From contig JAFAQB010000329.1 in NCBI GenBank assembly GCA_019246625.1, positions 1-39,583 on the forward strand: 39,583 nt of DNA. Reading direction: 5' to 3'. The number at the start of each line of letters is the position of its first letter. Within the stretch, counting starts at the first letter, position 1. Below are positions 4,431 to 23,795 of this stretch, in pieces. Below the pieces are notes generated by a model, which made no database searches, was not told the origin of the DNA, and saw only the letters and a program-made list of their open reading frames with translations. The translations under genes were made by a program, and so were the position numbers. This DNA comes from Nitrososphaeraceae archaeon. Lineage in GTDB: Archaea; Thermoproteota; Nitrososphaeria; Nitrososphaerales; Nitrososphaeraceae.

Positions 4431-7400
4431 TTAACCCATAAATTCTATAAGACTAGATTGTTCTTTCTTTCGCTCCTTGAAGATTAATTTCAATTCCATT
4501 ATTAAAGATTCAACTCTGCTGCGCAGATAATCATTAACTTTGAATTGGTTGCACATATTTGTTGCAATACCAATATATTTTTCAACTGAACCCCTGGTAA
4601 CTGTTTGCAAAAGTTCATTTTCACATCCTAAGCACTTGCCTATAATTGGCATTCTGCGATACTTTTCTCCACATCTGCCGCATCTAAAAGCTTGTGAAGA
4701 ATATGAACGCATATTGCCCATAATATCTGGTAAAATATGTGTAACGAGCACCATTGATACCACCTCATCAGGATCTACTGCATTGATCAGTTTTGCGATA
4801 GCTATCTGCATCTCCAATTTTTCATCCATAGTATTGAGTCTAGAATATGCACTTCTCTGACCATTGGTTGTTATCAGACCAGTAGGGTGTGTAAAGGCAT
4901 AATCAAAAAATTGATTTTCACTTCCAATCCTATTTCTAATAGTTTCTATTTGGTCAGATAACTCTCCAGCTTTGGACTGTTTCCAGGTTGATTCATAAAA
5001 TTCTAGTGGATAAACTGGAACGACATCAACATTATGGGCTTGTCTTTGTACTTCATAGGGCAATACTAGCGGCTGGATTAGTAGAGGTGCATCCATAAGT
5101 CCGCCAATTTTATCAGGCAAGAAGTCGTACGAGAAGTTTAAGAAGGCATCCATAAGTAGAATTAGAGAATCTGCATCGCCATCACAATCTCTGCGTTTTG
5201 CAGAGTGCCAAACAGGTGATGCCAGACAGACCTGTGAATCTGTAAAACCTATGATTCTTCCTATAATACCTACAGAGGTATGTGGCGCTAACCCGACTAC
5301 CATATGTCCCACAAGGTCTTTTTCAGAAGATGCATTATAGAAAGGCTCAAGCCGATATAATTTTACAAGTTCTTCATCAATAAATTTGGCTACATTAAGT
5401 AAATGTTTAGCAGCTTCTAAGGGTATTATTATATCCTGCATTAACAGTTCTACTAACTGATCAGGTAAAGTTAGATCCATACCAAGATAATCTTCATTAT
5501 AGCCTAATTCTCTTAATCTTTCTATACTAGCCATAGTCCATTTTGGTTTAAAATGGGTCAACGGTTCATTTGTTGCGTCAAATCGAATAGTCCCATCCTT
5601 GAAAGTAAAAAGGCTATATTTTTGTCTCAGAACTCCTTTTTCTAGCGGCTCGGCTGCCCTGTCCTTGCTCATAAGAGTCTGGACGCCCTTAAGTGGTTCA
5701 GTTGCTTTGATGTCAAGTTTCCGTTGTACTTCTTCAAGTACTGTATTTAATGGATAGCTAATGGGAGAGTAAGTTTTACCTTGTTTACCACATCTATAGC
5801 ATTGGCTGTTTTTGATATCGGCAATCTCCTCTCTACAAATTATACATAAATTGCGTAGAGGAGTAGGACAACTACAATTATGGCACTGTATTCCAATAGA
5901 AGGGAGTTTGCAATTATTACAAAATCTATTTGCAAGTTCAGTGTAGAATGATTCATCCTTTGCCGCCTTTAAAATATCACGAGTTGCACCACCTCTAGAG
6001 CCAATAGGAAATAATACATGAACTGGTGGTTTCATTTTACGTTCTGCAGCCTTTTCGGGACGCCCAACTCTTACTGCGATCGAAGAGGCAAACTTTGGCT
6101 TAACTTCAATACCTGATGTTTTTGAAATAAACCCTATAACATCTTTTTTATTAATACTCTCAACAGTTAGAGTTGAGAATGACGTCGTTGCTTCTGCTGC
6201 TGGTTCAAACAACAACTTGGCTAGAGAAAATATCTGATCAATATTATCAATAACAATAACCTTGTTTCCATTTTTTACTGAATGAATGACTCCTAGTCGC
6301 TCCAAGATATCTTTTAACTTCGGGTCATCATTAGGTAAACTAATGGAAGAAGAGGTGTAATTATAATCTTCAACAACAGTATTCTGTTGATAGTATATTT
6401 CTTGCTTAGCGAATTTTTCTTTCAATAGTAAAACTTCATCTATAGTGATAGAATCCCAATAGAATGAATATTTTGGATAAAGTGGAATATTTAACCATTT
6501 GCTAATTGCAAAGGCTTCATCAATTGTTGGAACTGTTGCGAAATGTTCCTTTGATAACTGCATTAGCCTTTCTTTGGTCATTTTTTCAGTCAGATCAATT
6601 GATGAAAATGATGGCAATGTTAATAATTTCGCCTTCAATTCTAAAGTCCAAATTTCCTCTACATAACTAGATGGCAGCAGTTGAGCATTATTTTCAAGGA
6701 AATCACCATAACTTATTAGCATATCACCAAGATAAAGTATTTTTTCAATTCTAGGCCGCATCATTATAGCGTGTTCTATTGTAGTTATTTGCATCACACT
6801 GCCATTGTCAAGCCTAACAATAGGAGGTTCGATAGAATCTACAAGTGCTATGGTTGATGCTTTTCCGGGCACATCCATTTTAATTTGAGTCCCAACTACA
6901 ATGGCATCGCTTAATAATACAGGTACAGCTGGATGGATTCCAACAGTTGCGAAACCAGTATTATAACATCTACCATACCTTAACCGGAAGCCTCCAATTC
7001 TCTTTGCCATAGAAAGTACAGGTCTACCAGTAATCACTTCAGACATTCTGTGGTGTACCGCATCGTCATCACCTGTCTGAATTGCTCCCTTAAGGTTCTT
7101 GAGCCAATCCCAGCCATCCAATTTTAATGCTTCGACAAGGTTAACCAACTTTCTACTTCTACCTATAAGCCCGTCATTCATTACTCTTAAAGCACCACCA
7201 CGCACTCTATCGGTAGGGATTCTCTTCATTCCTCGATGACCGACAACTTCTACTGGATCAGTGTCTACACCATTAAGCTCCACGGGCAAACTGACTATAC
7301 ATTTAACTACATCCTCATCTAATACTTTGAACTGAAAATTTCCGACTTCACGTTCATAAATTCTGAGCTCTTCAATGAATCTTCCGGTCTCATCATCATA

Positions 7401-7961
7401 CGAGTTTGCAATGTATTTTTCTACGCCAGCAATTTTTCTTGCGTGGTCTGCTATTAACATAGTAAGCGCAGCCTCAGTTCCTCCCGCGGATCTTATAGGG
7501 CCAGCAAAAGATATCGAAAGATACTGGCTGCCATCAGAGTTATTCTTTAATTGGACGTCAGCAATTCCCTGCAAAGGGGCAACTGTTACACCTTCTGTAA
7601 CAACGGCTAGGCTAACACGAACGGCATTATTCAACCTAGTTTGGAGATCACCAATGCCATATTCTCCTATTGCAATCTCCTCAGCAATTTTAAGTGCAGC
7701 CTTTTCCTTGGTTGTATGCGAAAGTAAAGAACGCAACCTGTTTGCAATGTCAATATTGTGCATTTTTGCAACTCTGTCTGCCAGGTCATAAGCAATCTTT
7801 GTTTCTACAATATCAGAAACATCTAATCCTTTTTTACGTGCCTTTGTAGCTACCTCAAATGCTTGTTGTACATTTTTTAAAATACATTGCTGATAATTCA
7901 AATAATATTGTGGCATATGAATATTTTTCAAAAGAATTTCAGCATCATCTGTCACTTTCAT
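4431..7961 (-). CDS. polC: DNA polymerase D large subunit (DP2)
   Basis: The 1176-residue catalytic subunit of the archaeal replicative polymerase PolD, which extends primers at the fork. The double-psi-barrel active site is seen as RRDCDGDADS near residue 927, carrying the metal-binding aspartates. A cysteine-rich zinc module spans about 673-735 (CNNC, CHNC, CIIC, CYRC), and a second zinc site near 1093-1115 has CGRC and CLGC. The extreme C terminus QSSLIEFMG resembles a PCNA-binding PIP box. No intein is present, unlike several euryarchaeal homologues. The gene starts 9 bp after the stop of GGGP synthase, so the two are almost certainly co-transcribed. Its partner DP1 lies about 4 kb away beyond the origin. 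Confidence 0.97.
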   Translation of the reverse strand: MKVTDDAEILLKNIHMPQYYLNYQQCILKNVQQAFEVATKARKKGLDVSDIVETKIAYDLADRVAKMHNIDIANRLRSLLSHTTKEKAALKIAEEIAIGEYGIGDLQTRLNNAVRVSLAVVTEGVTVAPLQGIADVQLKNNSDGSQYLSISFAGPIRSAGGTEAALTMLIADHARKIAGVEKYIANSYDDETGRFIEELRIYEREVGNFQFKVLDEDVVKCIVSLPVELNGVDTDPVEVVGHRGMKRIPTDRVRGGALRVMNDGLIGRSRKLVNLVEALKLDGWDWLKNLKGAIQTGDDDAVHHRMSEVITGRPVLSMAKRIGGFRLRYGRCYNTGFATVGIHPAVPVLLSDAIVVGTQIKMDVPGKASTIALVDSIEPPIVRLDNGSVMQITTIEHAIMMRPRIEKILYLGDMLISYGDFLENNAQLLPSSYVEEIWTLELKAKLLTLPSFSSIDLTEKMTKERLMQLSKEHFATVPTIDEAFAISKWLNIPLYPKYSFYWDSITIDEVLLLKEKFAKQEIYYQQNTVVEDYNYTSSSISLPNDDPKLKDILERLGVIHSVKNGNKVIVIDNIDQIFSLAKLLFEPAAEATTSFSTLTVESINKKDVIGFISKTSGIEVKPKFASSIAVRVGRPEKAAERKMKPPVHVLFPIGSRGGATRDILKAAKDESFYTELANRFCNNCKLPSIGIQCHNCSCPTPLRNLCIICREEIADIKNSQCYRCGKQGKTYSPISYPLNTVLEEVQRKLDIKATEPLKGVQTLMSKDRAAEPLEKGVLRQKYSLFTFKDGTIRFDATNEPLTHFKPKWTMASIERLRELGYNEDYLGMDLTLPDQLVELLMQDIIIPLEAAKHLLNVAKFIDEELVKLYRLEPFYNASSEKDLVGHMVVGLAPHTSVGIIGRIIGFTDSQVCLASPVWHSAKRRDCDGDADSLILLMDAFLNFSYDFLPDKIGGLMDAPLLIQPLVLPYEVQRQAHNVDVVPVYPLEFYESTWKQSKAGELSDQIETIRNRIGSENQFFDYAFTHPTGLITTNGQRSAYSRLNTMDEKLEMQIAIAKLINAVDPDEVVSMVLVTHILPDIMGNMRSYSSQAFRCGRCGEKYRRMPIIGKCLGCENELLQTVTRGSVEKYIGIATNMCNQFKVNDYLRSRVESLIMELKLIFKERKKEQSSLIEFMG

Positions 7962-7970
7962 TTGCTTCCA

Positions 7971-8711
7971 TCATCTCCTTATAGAGGTGATAATTGAAGA
8001 AAATATACTTTCCCAGTTCTTATCTTTCTCAATAATTGTACCAATTACAATGATGTCTGCACCTGCTTTAGCTATTTCTTTTGCAGTTTCCGGTGTTCGA
8101 ATTCCGCCACCAATAATAAGGATTCCTTCATAATGTTTCCTTACAGACGCCACCATTTGTGGTGAGATATTCTGATTGGCACCCGAACCCGCCTCAAGAT
8201 ACAAAAATCTCATGCCAAGATACTGCGCTGCTAGAGAATACATAATGGCAATTCCTGATTTATTGAAAGGGATTCCGCGAGCATGACCTATAAACCATGC
8301 GGTAGTACCTTCACCTATAATTAAGTAACCAGTAGGTAATGGTTCGATCTTATGTTTCTTTACAGCAAGAGCTCCCAATGCTTGAGCTTCAGTAATAAAG
8401 TAAGGACTTTCTGAGTTAAGCAAAGAGCTAAACAAAATAGCGTCTGCTTTAGGAGACACTCCAGTAACATTGCCAGGAAACAATATCACAGGAATGCTGA
8501 CTTGTGACTTGATACTTGAGACTACCTCCATGAGCTCGAGTTGATCAACCGTAGAAGATCCGCCTACCAAAATTGCAGAAGCCCCTATTTTCTCAGCCTT
8601 CTTGGCAATGCAGGCTGCCTCAGAAGAATTTTCAGTATCTACAAGAGGAAAGCATAATGTTCCATGTTTTTTAATCTCCTTATGAATATAATCCTCTACA
8701 TTATCCCACAT
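7971..8711 (-). CDS. Geranylgeranylglyceryl phosphate synthase
   Basis: A 246-residue TIM-barrel prenyltransferase that joins geranylgeranyl diphosphate to sn-glycerol-1-phosphate, the first committed step of archaeal ether-lipid synthesis. Family signatures are present: GGSSTVD near 50-56, PVILFPGN near 74-81, YLEAGSGA near 171-178, and the phosphate-binding GGGIRTPE near 201-208 followed by GADIIVIGT. Length is typical. It is first in a two-gene leftward unit with the PolD large subunit, so membrane-lipid and replication genes share a transcript. Group I versus group II enzyme cannot be decided by eye. Confidence 0.93.
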   Translation of the reverse strand: MWDNVEDYIHKEIKKHGTLCFPLVDTENSSEAACIAKKAEKIGASAILVGGSSTVDQLELMEVVSSIKSQVSIPVILFPGNVTGVSPKADAILFSSLLNSESPYFITEAQALGALAVKKHKIEPLPTGYLIIGEGTTAWFIGHARGIPFNKSGIAIMYSLAAQYLGMRFLYLEAGSGANQNISPQMVASVRKHYEGILIIGGGIRTPETAKEIAKAGADIIVIGTIIEKDKNWESIFSSIITSIRR

Positions 8712-8847: not shown

Positions 8848-9219
8848 ATGAGTAATTATGAATCATATTTTAACATTATTCATAGAGAAATTATTGCAAA
8901 TTCTTTATTTACTGAGAGGCAGATAGATATTATTTATAATCGATTGTCTCATCAAACTGTTCCTAAAAATATAAGCCGTGGTGCATATCACAGACAGTTA
9001 AAGCAGTGCCGGAACAAAATCGTTGGTGTTCTTTATAGTATATTGCTACTGAAATCTATTGGAGCTATCGACCAGCAAACACTTTCTATTCTTGGAACAA
9101 TGTGCGATCAACTGGCCGTGATGTTAGATATAGTGAATAGTGATATTTCTCCTAATAAGGTTACAGATAACGTGATGTCTACTGTAAATGGCATTCTAAA
9201 GAAAATGTGTAAGGTGTAA
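8848..9219 (+). CDS. Conserved thaumarchaeal hypothetical, all-helical
   Basis: I do not recognise a named family. The 123 residues look entirely alpha-helical. A basic central part (SRGAYHRQLKQCRNK) followed by hydrophobic helices could be a helix-turn-helix or a dimerisation bundle. No cysteine pairs, signal peptide or membrane segment are obvious. It is the first gene transcribed rightward toward the origin and is followed 50 bp later by the membrane-anchored winged-helix gene, so the pair probably forms an operon. Position between PolD and the origin suggests, but does not show, a role linked to replication or its regulation. Confidence 0.75.
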   Translation: MSNYESYFNIIHREIIANSLFTERQIDIIYNRLSHQTVPKNISRGAYHRQLKQCRNKIVGVLYSILLLKSIGAIDQQTLSILGTMCDQLAVMLDIVNSDISPNKVTDNVMSTVNGILKKMCKV

Positions 9220-9269: not shown

Positions 9270-9980
9270 ATGATGATAAGTATTGGGTTTTATAATTGGA
9301 ACTTAGTGATGTCAATTATAGGATCTTTTGCTATCGGTGCTCTTAGTATGATGATGTACAATAAACTAAGATTGTATACTAAAGCATTGAATTCCCAGAC
9401 TAACGAAAATATCATCGAAGCGATTATTTCAGAGTATTCGGCTCGGTTAAAGGGTTTTGAGAAGACAGTTATGGATATGGTTATGAGAATAGACATTATG
9501 GAATTATGGATACTACGTCAACATCCATCACCGATTCCCTCTAAGCGTGATATAAATCCAGAATCCCTAAGCTCGACGTCACATCACCAATCACATGATC
9601 AAGAGAAATTCTTGATGCTCAGTAGGTCTACTGCATCGCCCACACAAGACTCATCAAAGCCAATAGTTGACAAAGATAATCTAACCACTATACAAAATGT
9701 CACTACAGATCATATCTTAAAATTACTGATCGAGAGACCCAGGACTTCGAGAGAAATACAATATACTATTGGGAGAACAAGGGAACATACATCACGTCTT
9801 ATGAAAAGACTTTATCAAACAAACCTTGTAAGTAGAGAAAGCGGTAGCAAACCCTTCAAATACACTATTACGGATGCAGGCCTTCTAAGACTGAATACAC
9901 ATCAGCAGGCAAATTACAAGGATCCTCGAATTGCTGTTGACTCATATTCTTCTGGCTCCCAATTACAGACTGCTGCCTAG
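9270..9980 (+). CDS. Membrane-anchored winged-helix protein beside the origin
   Basis: This 236-residue protein has three visible parts. An N-terminal hydrophobic segment at about 10-30 (LVMSIIGSFAIGALSMMMY) looks like a membrane anchor. A helical, probably coiled-coil stretch follows at about 38-80 and then a polar Ser/Thr/Pro-rich linker. A C-terminal winged helix occupies about 145-210: DHILKLLIERPRTSREIQ, the helix-turn-helix GRTREHTSRLMKRLYQ, and a wing ending in YTITDAGLLRL. The C-terminal domain resembles MarR/ArsR-type regulators. A DNA-binding domain on a membrane tether next to the origin could act in transcription, sensing or origin positioning; I cannot choose among these. ATG codons at 9270 and 9273 are both possible starts. 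Confidence 0.8.
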   Translation: MMISIGFYNWNLVMSIIGSFAIGALSMMMYNKLRLYTKALNSQTNENIIEAIISEYSARLKGFEKTVMDMVMRIDIMELWILRQHPSPIPSKRDINPESLSSTSHHQSHDQEKFLMLSRSTASPTQDSSKPIVDKDNLTTIQNVTTDHILKLLIERPRTSREIQYTIGRTREHTSRLMKRLYQTNLVSRESGSKPFKYTITDAGLLRLNTHQQANYKDPRIAVDSYSSGSQLQTAA

Positions 9981-10440
9981 TTATTGTATATACCCATTCA
10001 TTCCTTTTTTGGTTCTAATAAGTCTATCTCTTTGAGAGTATCCCGACAAATAAGAAGTTATGCTTAGTTGGATAGGTTCGTCATAGATCTTCAAATATTT
10101 GAGATATTTGAAGAAGTGAAATTGACAGACTGAAATTTGTCCTAAGCAAACCCCATATTTTGGAACCAGAGACCAAGGTATTATTATTTTGCTTAATTTC
10201 TACTTCTGCGGTTCCCGTTGTTGAGTAGATGTCATTACCAATGTGTAGATATTACCCTGTATTATTGATATTATTAGATTTTTGCCCTCTTAGTTCAAGC
10301 AGTTCCGTTAATTCAAAGATCTCTTTTTTCATCTTTTGACATACTACGTTCTAATGAAAGGTTATACTTGCGACCTTCAGTGTCTTCGTCCTATCTTTAT
10401 CTTTTACCTACGCTCAATTTGAGTATCTTTCTACTTTTGC
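9981..10440. other. Gene-free region left of the origin core
   Basis: About 460 bp with no credible gene on either strand. It includes a perfect hairpin at 10089-10113 and several pyrimidine-rich tracts. Together with the repeat-rich core to its right it makes the largest non-coding interval without pseudogenes in the window. Confidence 0.6.
10089..10113. repeat. Perfect 10-bp inverted repeat (hairpin)
   Basis: CTTCAAATAT and ATATTTGAAG flank the 5-bp spacer TTGAG. It lies 109 bp after the stop of the winged-helix gene. It could be a terminator, a regulator binding site or an origin-associated structure. Confidence 0.6.
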
Positions 10441-10594
10441 GATTAGTGTTAACATATTAACACTTAACACTGCTACTAACTTTATTGATAATAAGATACT
10501 TAGCTTTTGTTAACATCAAATGAGAGAGTTCATATAGTCTTAACAACTTTGCATTGTTAACATACCATCTCTATTTCAATAGAGGCATTTTTAT

Positions 10595-10614
10595 TCCAGT
10601 GGAAATGTAGGGGT
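10595..10614 (+). promoter_or_regulatory. Origin recognition box 1 (ORB)
   Basis: TCCAGTGGAAATGTAGGGGT has the two hallmarks of archaeal ORBs: a TCCAnnGGAAA inverted half-site and a downstream G-string. It is identical over 20 bp to the element at 10655. Confidence 0.85.
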
Positions 10615-10654
10615 CTAATATCGCTTGTTAACAATGTTAATGATTAGTTAACAG

Positions 10655-10674
10655 TCCAGTGGAAATGTAGGGGT
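10655..10674 (+). promoter_or_regulatory. Origin recognition box 2 (ORB)
   Basis: Identical 20-bp copy of the element at 10595, same orientation, start-to-start spacing exactly 60 bp. That is near six helical turns, so two Orc1 molecules would load on the same DNA face. A GTTAACA box abuts its left edge. Confidence 0.85.
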
Positions 10675-10754
10675 TCTATTTCTTCCTCTTTTCTATATTA
10701 CCATCAAATTTGTTAACAAATTGTTAATAACCAAATATACTCATCCAACGCTCG

Positions 10755-10774
10755 GCCCCACAGTTTCGTTTGGA
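10755..10774 (-). promoter_or_regulatory. Inverted ORB-like element
   Basis: On the minus strand TCCAAACGAAACTGTGGGGC matches the ORB at 13 of 20 positions, including TCCA, the GAAA core and the GGGG string. It faces the two direct ORBs across an AT-rich tract. Confidence 0.6.
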
Positions 10775-10893
10775 ATTGCTACTCGTAAGTCAATATTTGA
10801 TATTTAAAAATTTTATACGATAATCAATACTTATTGATTTTAATGTTTAAAAACAATTTGTTAACATCTTGTTAACATAAAAGTATACCATGC

Positions 10894-10913
10894 TGGATAG
10901 GAAAGATAGGGGT
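10894..10913 (+). promoter_or_regulatory. Degenerate ORB in the orc1 promoter
   Basis: TGGATAGGAAAGATAGGGGT matches the ORB at 14 of 20 positions, keeping GGAAA and AGGGGT. It lies 33 bp before the orc1 start codon, where bound Orc1 could repress its own gene. Confidence 0.55.
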
Positions 10914-10946
10914 GTGGAGTGATCCACTTATTAAGAGTGATTTGAG

Positions 10947-12164
10947 TTGAGTGATGATTTGCTTGACAATATTTTTGAAAAAGCTGCTGCTGGAAAAACA
11001 CTGGTCAAAAATCGCCGGACATTGACAATAGACTACGTACCTGAAAAGCTTCCATTTAGAGATGAGGAGACTAAAACAATTGCACAGGCATTATCTATAG
11101 TTTTAAGGAAAGCACGACCGTCTAATCTTTTATTATTTGGTAAGCCCGGCACCGGAAAAACAGCAGTGGCTAAAAACGTAATTGAACGCTTACACAAAAA
11201 GGCCCGTGAACTTGGGATAGAAGTAATAGTACCATTTGTTAATACAAAAACTGCAAATACCGCCTACAAAGTCCTTTATGAAATTGCTAAGGATATGGGC
11301 ATTAATAAAGGAGAAAAAAAATTACAGGTACATTTTACTGGGCTGTCTATGGGCGAAGCTACAGATAGAATTCTTGATTTCATTCAAAAGAAAAAGTTTT
11401 ACGTTATTTTAGTAATGGATGAAATTGATTCGCTAGTTGATAAAAATGGTGATGATATCTTATATAATTTTACTAGGGCAAATGAGCGAATCTCCGAAGG
11501 AGGCTTTATCAGCTTAATTGGGATATCTAACAGCCTTACGTTTAAAGATAAACTTGATCCTCGTGTTCGAAGCAGCTTAAGTGAAGAAGAAATGGTGTTT
11601 AATCCATATACAATAGAACAATTACAGAAGATCCTATCAGATAGAGCTAAGCTTGCGTTTAATGATGAGGTAGTATCTGATGCGGCAATAAATCTATGTG
11701 CGGCAATGGCTGGAAAGGAAAATGGTGATGCAAGGAGAGCAATTGATTTATTAAGAGTCGCCGCCGAAATTGCTGAGAGGGAAAGAGTTTCTAAAGTCGA
11801 AGAAAAACACATCAGATTAGCTCAAGAAAAAATTGAAAAGGATACAAATTATGAAGTTCTAAAAAATTCTACTGCCCATACTAAGCTAGTGATATTGGCG
11901 ATAATTAAATCAAAGAATGGGAATACTGGCGAAGTATATGAAACTTATTCATCGTTATGTTCACTCAGTGAGCAAGAACCACTTACACAACGTCGTATAA
12001 CACAAATAATAAGTGAACTTGATCAACTCGGTCTGATAACAAGCAATGTAGTGAGTCAGGGGCGATATGGTAGATCACAGAGAATCAAAATTACAGTTCC
12101 AACTTTAACTATTAAAGAAGCATTAAAAGATGATCCAATCCTTTTGCATTATATTGATAATTGA
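10947..12164 (+). CDS. cdc6: Orc1/Cdc6 replication initiator
   Basis: A 405-residue AAA+ ATPase that binds ORB elements and recruits the MCM helicase. Walker A is GKPGTGKT at 65-72, Walker B ends in VMDEID near 156-161, sensor 1 is in IGISNS, and sensor 2 is in GDARRAIDLLR. A C-terminal winged helix for DNA recognition follows from about 310 (QRRITQIISELDQLGLI, SQGRYGRSQRI). The start used is TTG at 10947 (then AGT GAT GAT); no in-frame ATG lies nearby and homologues begin close to this point. The last 16 bp overlap the convergent PolD small-subunit gene. An ORB-like site immediately upstream suggests autoregulation. Confidence 0.96.
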   Translation: MSDDLLDNIFEKAAAGKTLVKNRRTLTIDYVPEKLPFRDEETKTIAQALSIVLRKARPSNLLLFGKPGTGKTAVAKNVIERLHKKARELGIEVIVPFVNTKTANTAYKVLYEIAKDMGINKGEKKLQVHFTGLSMGEATDRILDFIQKKKFYVILVMDEIDSLVDKNGDDILYNFTRANERISEGGFISLIGISNSLTFKDKLDPRVRSSLSEEEMVFNPYTIEQLQKILSDRAKLAFNDEVVSDAAINLCAAMAGKENGDARRAIDLLRVAAEIAERERVSKVEEKHIRLAQEKIEKDTNYEVLKNSTAHTKLVILAIIKSKNGNTGEVYETYSSLCSLSEQEPLTQRRITQIISELDQLGLITSNVVSQGRYGRSQRIKITVPTLTIKEALKDDPILLHYIDN

Positions 12165-13693
12165 TTGAAATCCAGCTGAAATGGCTGAAGGGTAGTCAAG
12201 TTAATTAGAATTGCTATTCCGGGAGTTGGTACAATACCCATAGTCTGTTGAAATTTAGTTTGTGCCTGCCATGCACCTGAATTAACCACTAATGTTCCAC
12301 GATAATTTTCAACATCTATGATATGAACGTGTCCTGAATGGAATATGTCTGGGATCTCAGTAATTACCATCATATCTTCCTGCTCTGGTGCTATAGGTGT
12401 ACGTTGTCCATATATTGGCGACAAATGCCGGGCTTTGAGCAATACTTTCATTGCCTCTGCTGGCTTTGAATAACTTAGACCTGGAGCCGTGGCAATAATA
12501 TCATCTAAACTCTGACCATGATACATCAATACTTTTACACCGTTTAATTCTACTAAGCTAGGGTTTCCAAGCATTGTAAAGTTTCCAAAAGAGTATAATT
12601 TATCAAAATCCTTTTTTGGTAGCGATGGTTGAGGTAGAGCCCTTCTTCCCAGGTCATGGTTACCAGGAATTATAAAGACCTTGATATGCATAGGAATTTT
12701 AGCAAGCAAATCCATAACATGCATCATCTGCCTAGTGGTATTGATTTCAAGTAATTCCTTATCTTGATTAGGAAATATGCCTGTTCCATCAATTAAATCC
12801 CCTCCGATACACATAAATCTGATCTTATTTACAATTTCATCATCGGTTGATGAAAGCCAATTTAAAAATCTAATAAATTCAGCTTCCATGAAATATCTAC
12901 TACCAACATGAAGATCAGAAATTAAAACTGCGTAAGATTCATGTTTTGATCTATTTGGGAGATGATCAGGAATATCAGGTGAAACTAGATTCTTTATAAT
13001 GAAACCTTGAATTCCCTTCATATTACGCTCAACTTCTAACATGACCATTTGGTCAAGAGGAATCATAGAAGCTTGTTTCTTTAATTCTTCAGTATTGGCA
13101 AGAGCGCTCAATGTTCCGCTATAATCATCAATTATCATCTCTAATCCATTCTTTCTTGAATGCTTGGACATTAGCAAACCAGCTACTATAGAAGAATTCG
13201 TAATCGAGTTCCCTTTAACATAATGCGATTTACCTTTCTTTGCATCATTTACACTCTGTTTTATAGAAGCAATTTTTGTAATTCGCTTACTCTCTGGGCG
13301 TAATGCTAATATATGAAGTGACTTTTCAAACCTACTACGAAAAAGTGCAGTATAACCATCAATACCTTCTCCAGTGTTAACATTTGGAGTTGGATCTAAA
13401 ATTACTTTATGAAAATTCCGTTCAGAAAAAGAAGAGACAGTAGATGTCTCGGTGCCATTGACGTTAATTATATCAACATCAAATTTGTTTTCTGGATTGA
13501 TATGGATCTTGATATCCTCCACTACAATAAGAGAATTTTCCTTTTGTTTGATTTTCCTTTTGATAATGTCTTGTATAATTTTTAAAATGTTAGTATCAAG
13601 ACCCTTCAGCATTGAAAAAGCGTCAGGATGAACTTGATAACCCATGCTAGTAGCATAGGAAAGGGCGTTAGAAATTTCTCTCTGCAAAGCCAA
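12149..13693 (-). CDS. polB: DNA polymerase D small subunit (DP1), proofreading nuclease
   Basis: The 514-residue DP1 subunit carries the Mre11-like 3'-5' exonuclease of PolD and holds the catalytic DP2. All calcineurin-type phosphoesterase motifs are present: ISDLHVG near 260, GGDLIDG near 300, PGNHDLGRR near 346, YHGQS near 395 and SGHVHIID near 454. The metal ligands therefore look intact and proofreading should be active. The N-terminal ~200 residues, with a polar linker, are the variable region used for partner binding. The gene converges on orc1/cdc6 with a 16-bp overlap of the 3' ends. The order oriC-cdc6-DP1 with DP2 close by recalls the Pyrococcus replication cluster. Confidence 0.96.
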   Translation of the reverse strand: MALQREISNALSYATSMGYQVHPDAFSMLKGLDTNILKIIQDIIKRKIKQKENSLIVVEDIKIHINPENKFDVDIINVNGTETSTVSSFSERNFHKVILDPTPNVNTGEGIDGYTALFRSRFEKSLHILALRPESKRITKIASIKQSVNDAKKGKSHYVKGNSITNSSIVAGLLMSKHSRKNGLEMIIDDYSGTLSALANTEELKKQASMIPLDQMVMLEVERNMKGIQGFIIKNLVSPDIPDHLPNRSKHESYAVLISDLHVGSRYFMEAEFIRFLNWLSSTDDEIVNKIRFMCIGGDLIDGTGIFPNQDKELLEINTTRQMMHVMDLLAKIPMHIKVFIIPGNHDLGRRALPQPSLPKKDFDKLYSFGNFTMLGNPSLVELNGVKVLMYHGQSLDDIIATAPGLSYSKPAEAMKVLLKARHLSPIYGQRTPIAPEQEDMMVITEIPDIFHSGHVHIIDVENYRGTLVVNSGAWQAQTKFQQTMGIVPTPGIAILINLTTLQPFQLDFNQLSI

Positions 13694-21698: not shown

Positions 21699-22592
21699 GA
21701 GCCTATCTCAAAAATAGTAGATAGACATATAGCTTGAGAAGTTCTTCTTTCTATATAGCTGTGAATAATGAGGACAAAACATCTTCCAGCAATTAGAAAA
21801 ATTCCAGATGAATTATGGGATGAGATCAAGCTACTAATACTTCCACCAGAGAAAGCAAATAATAACACTATAGGACGTCCTCCTGCTATTCCATTTAGAA
21901 AAGTACTAGATGGTATTGTGTACATTTTAAGAACAGGATGTCAATGGAAGATGTTGCCAAAAGAATATGGTTCTGGTTCCATATGTCATAGGAGGTTTCA
22001 ACAATGGATATTAACAAAAGTATTCCAAAGATTATGGGTTAAATTACTGGAACTATATGATGATCTTAGAGGTATTACATGGTACTGGCAATCGCTTGAT
22101 AGCGTAGCTGTGAAAGCGCCTTTAGAGTGGAAATGACAGGTCCTAATCCTACAGACAGAGGCAAACTTGGAACAAACAAAGCGTCATCTATTAGTAGATC
22201 AAAAAGGTATTCCATTATCGCTTACTATAACAGGCTCAAATATACATGACATGAAGGCTGCTGCAGTAGAAACACTGGAAAGAACAATAGTTGAAAGACC
22301 TTTAAAGTATCAGAATTTGTGTCTTGATAAAGGATACGACTTTCCAGAAATAGAAAGAGAATCCATCAAAAGAAGAAGATACATCCCGCATATTCGTCAT
22401 AGAGGTGTCAAAGAAGAATTGATAAAGATAGGATATGAAACTAAGAGATGGGTCGTAGAAAGAACAAACTCTTGGCACAACAGATTCAGAAAGTTACTAG
22501 TAAGATATGAAAAGAAATCAGAGAACTATCTTTCACTACTGTATTTAGCTTGCTGTATTATTATCTACAGAAGGATAGTTTTGGGATACCCA
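21699..22592 (+). mobile_element. Decayed IS5-type insertion sequence
   Basis: The left end GAGCCTATCTCAAAA (21699-21713) and the reverse complement of the right end (ATGGGTATCCCAAAA, 22578-22592) agree at 10 of 15 positions, strongest over TATCnCAAAA. This looks like eroded terminal inverted repeats about 0.9 kb apart that enclose an IS5-family transposase. No clear target duplication is left. Confidence 0.65.
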
Positions 22593-22625
22593 TGTGAACT
22601 ACTCTTAAATGTTTCTGATTTCTGA
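21768..22625 (+). pseudogene. IS5-family transposase, frameshifted
   Basis: Two frames carry one DDE transposase. The first (21768-22136) has LWDEIKLLI, RTGCQWKMLPKEYG and the first catalytic Asp in SLDSVAVKAP. The second (22167-22625) has KRHLLVDQKGIPLSLTITGSN, the second Asp in CLDKGYDFPE and the Glu in RWVVERTNSW. Between them the expected linker (MTGPNPTDRGKLGT) is readable only in a third frame. At least two indels are therefore needed to restore the gene, one apparently a duplicated AACA near 22172, so this is decay and not programmed frameshifting. The natural stop, which such elements place within the right inverted repeat (GGATAG), has become GGATAC, and the frame runs out past the element. 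Confidence 0.85.
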
Positions 22626-22772: not shown

Positions 22773-23795
22773 TTATCCCTTAACTATGATTGGTACTTTC
22801 TTTTTTTGTTTCATAACACAACAAATAATTCTTAGTAACTTGGATGCAGCAGCAACAGCTGCCTTTGAATTGCCTTTGCTTTTAGCCAACCTTGAATAGA
22901 ATTGTGATATACTGCTATTCTTGTTAGTTCTGATATGTACATGAACACATTCCAACATTATCCATCGCAGATATTTACTTCCTCTTTTGGTTATACTGCC
23001 ATGATAGGTTATTATTCCACCAGAGCTATGTGTTGATGGTATCAATCCAGAATATGAACATAAATGATGAGAATCAGGAAATCTGTTGATATCTCCAATT
23101 TCGCTTACTATAAGTAAAGCCGAATAATAACCAATGCTTGGAATTGTCATCAGAAGGCTGGCTGGCCATTTCATCTTCTTTAGCCAGTGTTACTATCTCT
23201 TTGGACAGAATCTTTATCTCGCTATCTAATGACTCAATTAAATGCAGATATCAATTTATTCGGTAATCATTTAATGTTCTGAGTTCCTCATTATATAGAT
23301 GTGTAAATGATGAGTACTGCTTACTGGATATTTGAATACTTTTCATAATAAGTACAATACTATGAATCTTGTTCTTTAGTTTGGTTCTCATTCTACTAAC
23401 CAAGGCAGCCCTGTGTCGAACAAGCTCACGAAGGTCCATTATTCTTCTATCCGGTACGTAGCACTCTGCTATGTAACCTCCACGTAAGAGGTTAGCCAGT
23501 TTTTTCACAGCATCCAGTTTATCTGTCTTTATCTTTGCAGATGCAATAGCCCTTGTCTTGATAGGATTAGATAATACCACATTAAGATGCTTTTTTTCTG
23601 ATAGATAGTTGTATATATTATACCACACACGTGAAGATTCCATCACTATACGGGTCTTTTCATTATTGAGATTATCAAAAAATTCTCCCACCTGCTTAAG
23701 ATTGTTGTCTATCTTTGAATTTTCTAATACCTTTCCTTTTCATTCATCACGGCTATTTGCAGATAGTTTTTGTGTAGATCCATTCCTACAAACAT
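22773..23795 (-). pseudogene. IS110-family transposase, multiply disrupted
   Basis: A leftward DEDD transposase of the IS110/IS1111 family, which in intact elements cuts DNA under the guidance of an element-encoded bridge RNA. The N-terminal part starts at ATG 23795 with MFVGMDLHKNYLQIAV (first catalytic Asp) and then loses one base near 23735. The next frame has RIVMESS (Glu), IKTDKLDA (two Asp) and RELVRHRAALVSRMRTKLK. A stop follows DYRIN, and another frameshift occurs near 23160. The last frame holds the C-terminal domain: TIPSIGYYSALLIVSEIGD, YSGLIPSTHSSGG and GSITKRGSKYLRW. Three or more lesions make it non-functional. It lies about 180 bp from the IS5-type remnant. Confidence 0.88.

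Follow-up and report, generated by a model that had tools for sequence, protein, structure and literature searches.

The window analysed in this study, that is, the whole 39,583-nt stretch of DNA from a soil ammonia-oxidising Nitrososphaeraceae archaeon (GCA_019246625.1, contig JAFAQB010000329.1, positions 1-39,583, forward strand), carries an orc1/cdc6 gene at 10947-12164 (+). The gene begins with a TTG codon and encodes a 405-aa protein that scores 375.8 bits against TIGR02928 (cut-off, 181.3). The closest solved relatives of this protein are Aeropyrum Orc1 (2v1u) and Sulfolobus Orc1-1 (2qby_A), to which it aligns over nearly its full length. The conserved neighbours of orc1 include the genes for the small subunit (DP1) of DNA polymerase D (PolD; 12149-13693, -) and for a PcrB/GGGP synthase family protein (7971-8711, -). 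The PolD large subunit (DP2; 4431-7961, -) was named from its translation, and its homologues occupy the corresponding position in relatives. Between the PcrB gene and orc1 lie a gene for a 236-aa protein (9270-9980, +), hereafter the flanking gene, and the decayed remnant of OrfX (9967-10397, -), a small winged-helix protein that is intact here in many relatives. Elsewhere in the window, transposase-like open frames that are apparently broken are present at 21768-22625 (+) and 22773-23691 (-), comprising, by reading only, an IS5-like pair and an IS110-like pair.

The block between the OrfX remnant and orc1 contains four ORBs. The earlier note had placed this block directly upstream of orc1/cdc6 and had claimed for it two identical 20-bp ORBs, an inverted ORB-like element facing them and AT-rich tracts, all of which were recovered. 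ORB1 (10595-10614, +) is an exact match to TCCAGTGGAAATGTAGGGGT and is kept in the family; ORB2 (10655-10674, +) has the same sequence and starts exactly 60 bp downstream. ORB3 (TCCAAACGAAACTGTGGGG, 10756-10774, -) is the inverted element. A mini-ORB, ORB4 (TGGATAGGAAAGATAGGGGT / GGAAAGATAGGGGT, 10894-10913, +), lies approximately 33 bp ahead of the orc1 start and is kept in relatives. Neither this box nor the TGTTAA/TTAACA array at 10447-10877 described below appeared in the earlier note. A single position separates the window ORB from the common archaeal ORB of Ori-Finder 2, TCCA[CG]T[TG]GAAA[TC][GA]AAGGGGT (PMC4164010). Beyond ORB1 and ORB2, no copy of TCCAGTGGAAATGTAGGGGT with up to three mismatches was found in the window, nor was any found in 100 shuffles. 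In the whole 3.96 Mb assembly, the loose ORB pattern TCCANNNGAAANNNNGGGG matched only four times, three of them at the 10595-10774 locus, and its reversed control pattern gave no match. A+T content reaches 83% at 10821-10880, compared with 64% for the window as a whole, and AT-rich DNA (up to 83% A+T) lies between both sets of inverted boxes, ORB2(+)/ORB3(-) and ORB3(-)/ORB4(+). The interval between ORB3 and ORB4 (10775-10893) is a candidate for both an unwinding element and the orc1 promoter, and it includes a TATA-like candidate promoter, TTGATT-N5-GTTTAAAA, at 10834-10852.

Comparison of the interval among relatives, as had been proposed, showed that the ORB layout is kept across the family and in other families of the class. 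Orc1 relatives are present in 68 of 70 family genomes. Among the 47 Nitrososphaeraceae loci in which both first ORBs could be scored, the ORB1-ORB2 spacing is 60 bp in four, 61 bp in 32, 62 bp in ten and 63 bp in one; the proposed 60-bp phasing is therefore exact in the window and relaxes to 60-63 bp, most often 61 bp, in relatives. The inverted ORB3 core is present in 45 of the 47 loci, and most loci also have an ORB4-type box downstream. An ORB pair at the same spacing was also found in families f2 (taken to be Nitrosopumilaceae), f6, f7, f10 and f11 of the class; a search by pattern gave no ORB for the f3 or f5 loci. Elsewhere in the phylum, outside the class, this neighbourhood frequently has an inverted ORB pair approximately 150-230 bp apart instead. 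Since spacing of the 60-bp type recurs in the 47 family loci and in other families, the layout is, as judged by sequence comparison, real and old, and not special to the window. It is also less new than had been hoped. One genome (G019) has two orc1-plus-origin loci of different types (L019 and L035), with 84% and 73% identity to the window Orc1 and one ORB pair apiece; this assembly is possibly mixed.

Sulfolobus oriC1 and the origins of Aeropyrum and Pyrococcus (oriC) likewise have ORBs with a G-string, inverted ORBs around AT-rich DNA and an adjacent orc1/cdc6 gene. Pyrococcus oriC also lies near the PolD genes, as the window origin does. What sets the window locus apart from these three systems is a pair of direct ORBs ahead of the inverted one (60 bp apart in the window, 60-63 bp in the family) and an interleaved TGTTAAC array; f2 genomes have both the pair and the array. 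ORB repeats precede cdc6 in Nitrosopumilus maritimus and at the predicted Nitrosocaldus origin, as they do in the window (PMC5333045, PMC5797428): a table gives a single origin for N. maritimus (PMC5333045), and 'ORB repeats' are placed before the cdc gene in Nitrosocaldus (PMC5797428). The position of these published origins at a cdc6/ORB locus supports the presence of an origin here. The earlier reading of the block as an origin is thus backed by the ORB match, the inverted ORBs around AT-rich DNA, the orc1/PolD neighbours and the conservation in family and class, and the locus is well supported by comparison as a putative Orc1-type origin of chromosome replication, probably the main origin. 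By analogy with the Sulfolobus and Aeropyrum systems, Orc1 from the adjacent gene would bind ORB1-ORB2, the inverted ORB3 and the mini-ORB4, and would load MCM at the AT-rich DNA between the boxes; origin activity in vivo and all protein binding at the locus are predictions.

It is very unlikely that the block serves only to regulate orc1, with the gene under the control of Orc1 and a second repressor and the start of replication at another place. In keeping with such a role, the final two elements of the array, like ORB4, are less than 90 bp from the orc1 start and beside the TATA-like box, and the sampled nucleotide skew gives no clean switch. GC and AT skew were calculated for 40 sampled 20-kb stretches from each of two complete family genomes (G043 and G009). 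In G043, an origin sited at orc1 explained 19% of the sampled GC-skew variance (rank 17 of 127 positions) and 6% of the AT-skew variance; in G009, the values were 1% (rank 155 of 172 positions) and 36%. No clean skew switch was seen in the sampled stretches of either genome, an outcome that counts neither for nor against the origin. However, four ORBs and 13 array elements spread over 470 bp are too much for a promoter, ORBs of such form are nearly absent elsewhere in the genome, and in Nitrosopumilus and Nitrosocaldus the origin is accepted to lie at the orc1/ORB locus.

The array consists of 13 TGTTAA/TTAACA elements at 10447-10877, starting at 10447, 10457, 10464, 10508, 10540, 10555, 10626, 10635, 10648, 10711, 10722, 10859 and 10870, of which seven are the palindromic TGTTAACA. 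When 510-bp origin regions were compared with dinucleotide shuffles, TGTTAA/TTAACA was the top enriched hexamer in the origins of 15 family genomes (165 observed versus 15.4 expected), ahead of every ORB word, and it was also enriched in those of nine f2 genomes (99 versus 7.1); the palindromic TGTTAACA counts twice as a hexamer, alike in data and shuffles. For the GTTAAC palindrome, the corresponding numbers are 57 versus 3.1 and 45 versus 1.4. In most loci, each interval of the origin holds array elements, which occur left of ORB1 in all 47 family loci, between ORB1 and ORB2 in 41 of 47, between ORB2 and ORB3 in 41 of 45, and between ORB3 and ORB4 in 39 of 39. At the G043 origin there are 10 hexamers per 500 bp (maximum of 4 in the sampled 760 kb), and at the G009 origin 8 (maximum of 6 in the sampled 800 kb).

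Close pairs of GTTAAC are scarce genome-wide: most f1 and f2 relatives that were searched have two to seven per genome and, with few exceptions, one to three of the pairs in a genome lie at the origin. Genome G128 has 20 such pairs, mostly in one tandem repeat, and the genome that contains the window departs from the pattern with 41, many of them within a dispersed repeat. Families f1, f2 and f5 have a strong array, f3 has the array as well, f11 and f13 have a weaker one, and f4, f6, f7, f9 and f10 have none. The array is strong in the main ammonia-oxidiser families and weak or absent elsewhere. A locus from another class (L226) has seven array elements in 500 bp. In the searchable literature, no account of either the TGTTAAC array or the flanking gene was found, and searchable full texts, which exclude most subscription papers, held nothing relevant on GTTAAC/TTAACA in archaeal origins. 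The array is the more novel part of the locus, and the ORB part is an ordinary archaeal origin.

Ammonia-oxidising archaea are very abundant organisms. To our knowledge, their origins have hardly been dissected. In two major families, the enrichment of the array exceeds that of the ORB words, and the array, together with an origin-linked membrane winged-helix gene, offers a testable lead on origin control or anchoring. That gene is the flanking gene, which is present in 59 of 70 family genomes, usually as a single copy, and lies approximately 0.5-1.3 kb from orc1 in the family loci read. Of 151 genomes sampled from the phylum, 80 have it. Outside the class, Orc1 was encoded in the same 5-9 kb piece as the flanking gene in 10 of the 20 pieces examined, mostly with OrfX and ORBs in between. 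The flanking gene is ancient, and its position next to the origin is retained in much of the phylum. Moreover, the neighbourhood of PolD large subunit, PcrB, flanking gene, OrfX, ORBs, Orc1 and PolD small subunit occurs in whole or in part outside the class (L215, L218, L226, L225, L228 and others), and the order from PolD through PcrB, the flanking gene, OrfX and the ORBs to Orc1 is a phylum-level origin cluster.

The flanking protein comprises an N-terminal hydrophobic helix, a coiled coil, a disordered linker and a C-terminal winged helix, and the hydrophobic segment is present in nearly all homologues read, suggesting a role at the membrane. Its structure model has one long helix (residues 6-84), the disordered linker and a winged helix mostly with pLDDT >90. 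All sixteen columns that are invariant among 20 family members fall within residues 145-204, which form the winged helix. Pfam gave just weak winged-helix matches, below cut-off, for this protein and OrfX, and fold searches returned generic winged helices. Among the matches listed, the best geometric match of the flanking winged helix was AspA (PDB 4rs8), with a target TM-score of 0.78-0.80 and an rmsd of 1.5 over 74 columns; identity is 16% and E is 6e-4, many other winged helices score alike, and winged helices are common. The likeness of the modelled domain to AspA is suggestive only. AspA, a centromere-binding winged-helix protein of plasmid pNOB8, comes from a parBA cassette, whereas the flanking gene has no such cassette and neighbours the orc1, PolD and PcrB genes. 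AspA binds a palindrome and spreads (PMC5120986).

The locus is likely best explained as an Orc1-type origin combined with an array for a second protein other than Orc1. The array itself is presumably the binding array of that second protein, which would act with Orc1 at initiation, sequestration or anchoring. In Sulfolobus, ucm, recognized by UBP, is likewise a second conserved origin motif besides the ORBs, and the array might play a comparable role. The two differ in sequence, and there is one ucm site versus 13 array elements; no match to the ucm core with up to two mismatches was found at 9825-12224, a region that includes the origin (10440-10947). UBP is described as a recent acquisition, with ubp limited to Sulfolobales and Desulfurococcales (PMC12141716). 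Among the linked genes, the likeliest array binder is the membrane-anchored winged-helix protein encoded by the flanking gene, an assignment that we make only tentatively and that is open to doubt; bound to the array, this protein would keep the origin at the membrane or regulate it there. It is rather unlikely that the whole chain holds, such that ammonia-oxidising archaea have a centromere- or tether-like TGTTAAC array in their oriC, to which the membrane-anchored winged-helix protein of the adjacent gene binds, and the origin is thereby held at the membrane and controlled.

It is quite possible, without being probable, that the array is bound instead by an unlinked abundant nucleoid protein of ammonia-oxidising archaea, a functional counterpart of Sulfolobus UBP, and that the flanking winged-helix gene serves the origin in some other way. 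The flanking gene is also present in families without the array at the origin, with a similar recognition helix there, so that the array may belong to an unlinked UBP-like protein; the array is strong mainly in only a few families (f1, f2 and f5, with f3 in addition), and the flanking gene is older and wider. UBP binds more than 300 chromosomal sites (PMC12141716), and a second GTTAAC cluster lies outside the origin. A reading of the TGTTAA repeats as a sequence for DNA unwinding or Orc1/MCM loading, to which no dedicated protein binds, is unlikely. The repeats are AT-rich and interleaved with the ORBs, and a spacing of 8 or 10-12 bp is frequent among the half-sites; however, an exact 8-bp palindrome is kept and not just A+T richness, the enrichment was measured against shuffles of equal dinucleotide content, and some families have ORBs but no array. 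GATC in E. coli oriC is known for methylation-dependent sequestration. A similar function for GTTAAC as a DNA methylation site, with the array acting through sequestration, would fit a palindromic 6-bp site clustered at the origin, but is very improbable, as conservation reaches past the 6-bp palindrome to non-palindromic TGTTAA half-sites.

The second GTTAAC cluster of the window's own genome consists of six palindromes in approximately 150 bp of non-coding DNA (C305:2351-2496; L203 1351-1500), with no replication genes near it. It may be another target of the array-binding protein or a feature of a mobile element. The genome also has a second Orc1 gene (C224), with no ORB and no array at its own locus; the second Orc1 was rejected as a required array binder because several complete f2 genomes with one orc1 retain the array. 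Autoregulation of the flanking gene is unsupported, as no consistent array lies upstream of the gene itself.

OrfX was likewise rejected as a required array binder, being decayed in the window, where the array is full. In most families, an intact OrfX (approximately 134 aa, minus strand) separates the flanking gene from the origin, and the structure model of an intact relative contains a winged helix. In the window, its remnants are 70% identical at 10328-10387 and 54% identical at 10002-10097, with stops between, and the assembly holds no other copy. Since neither the window nor the g4, g6 or g12 loci that were read show an intact OrfX, a single loss in the branch comprising them is probable. 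In addition, a 123-aa protein without a Pfam match is encoded at 8848-9219 (+), and its relatives precede the flanking gene outside the class too (for example, in L219 and L225), making it a third conserved origin-linked gene.
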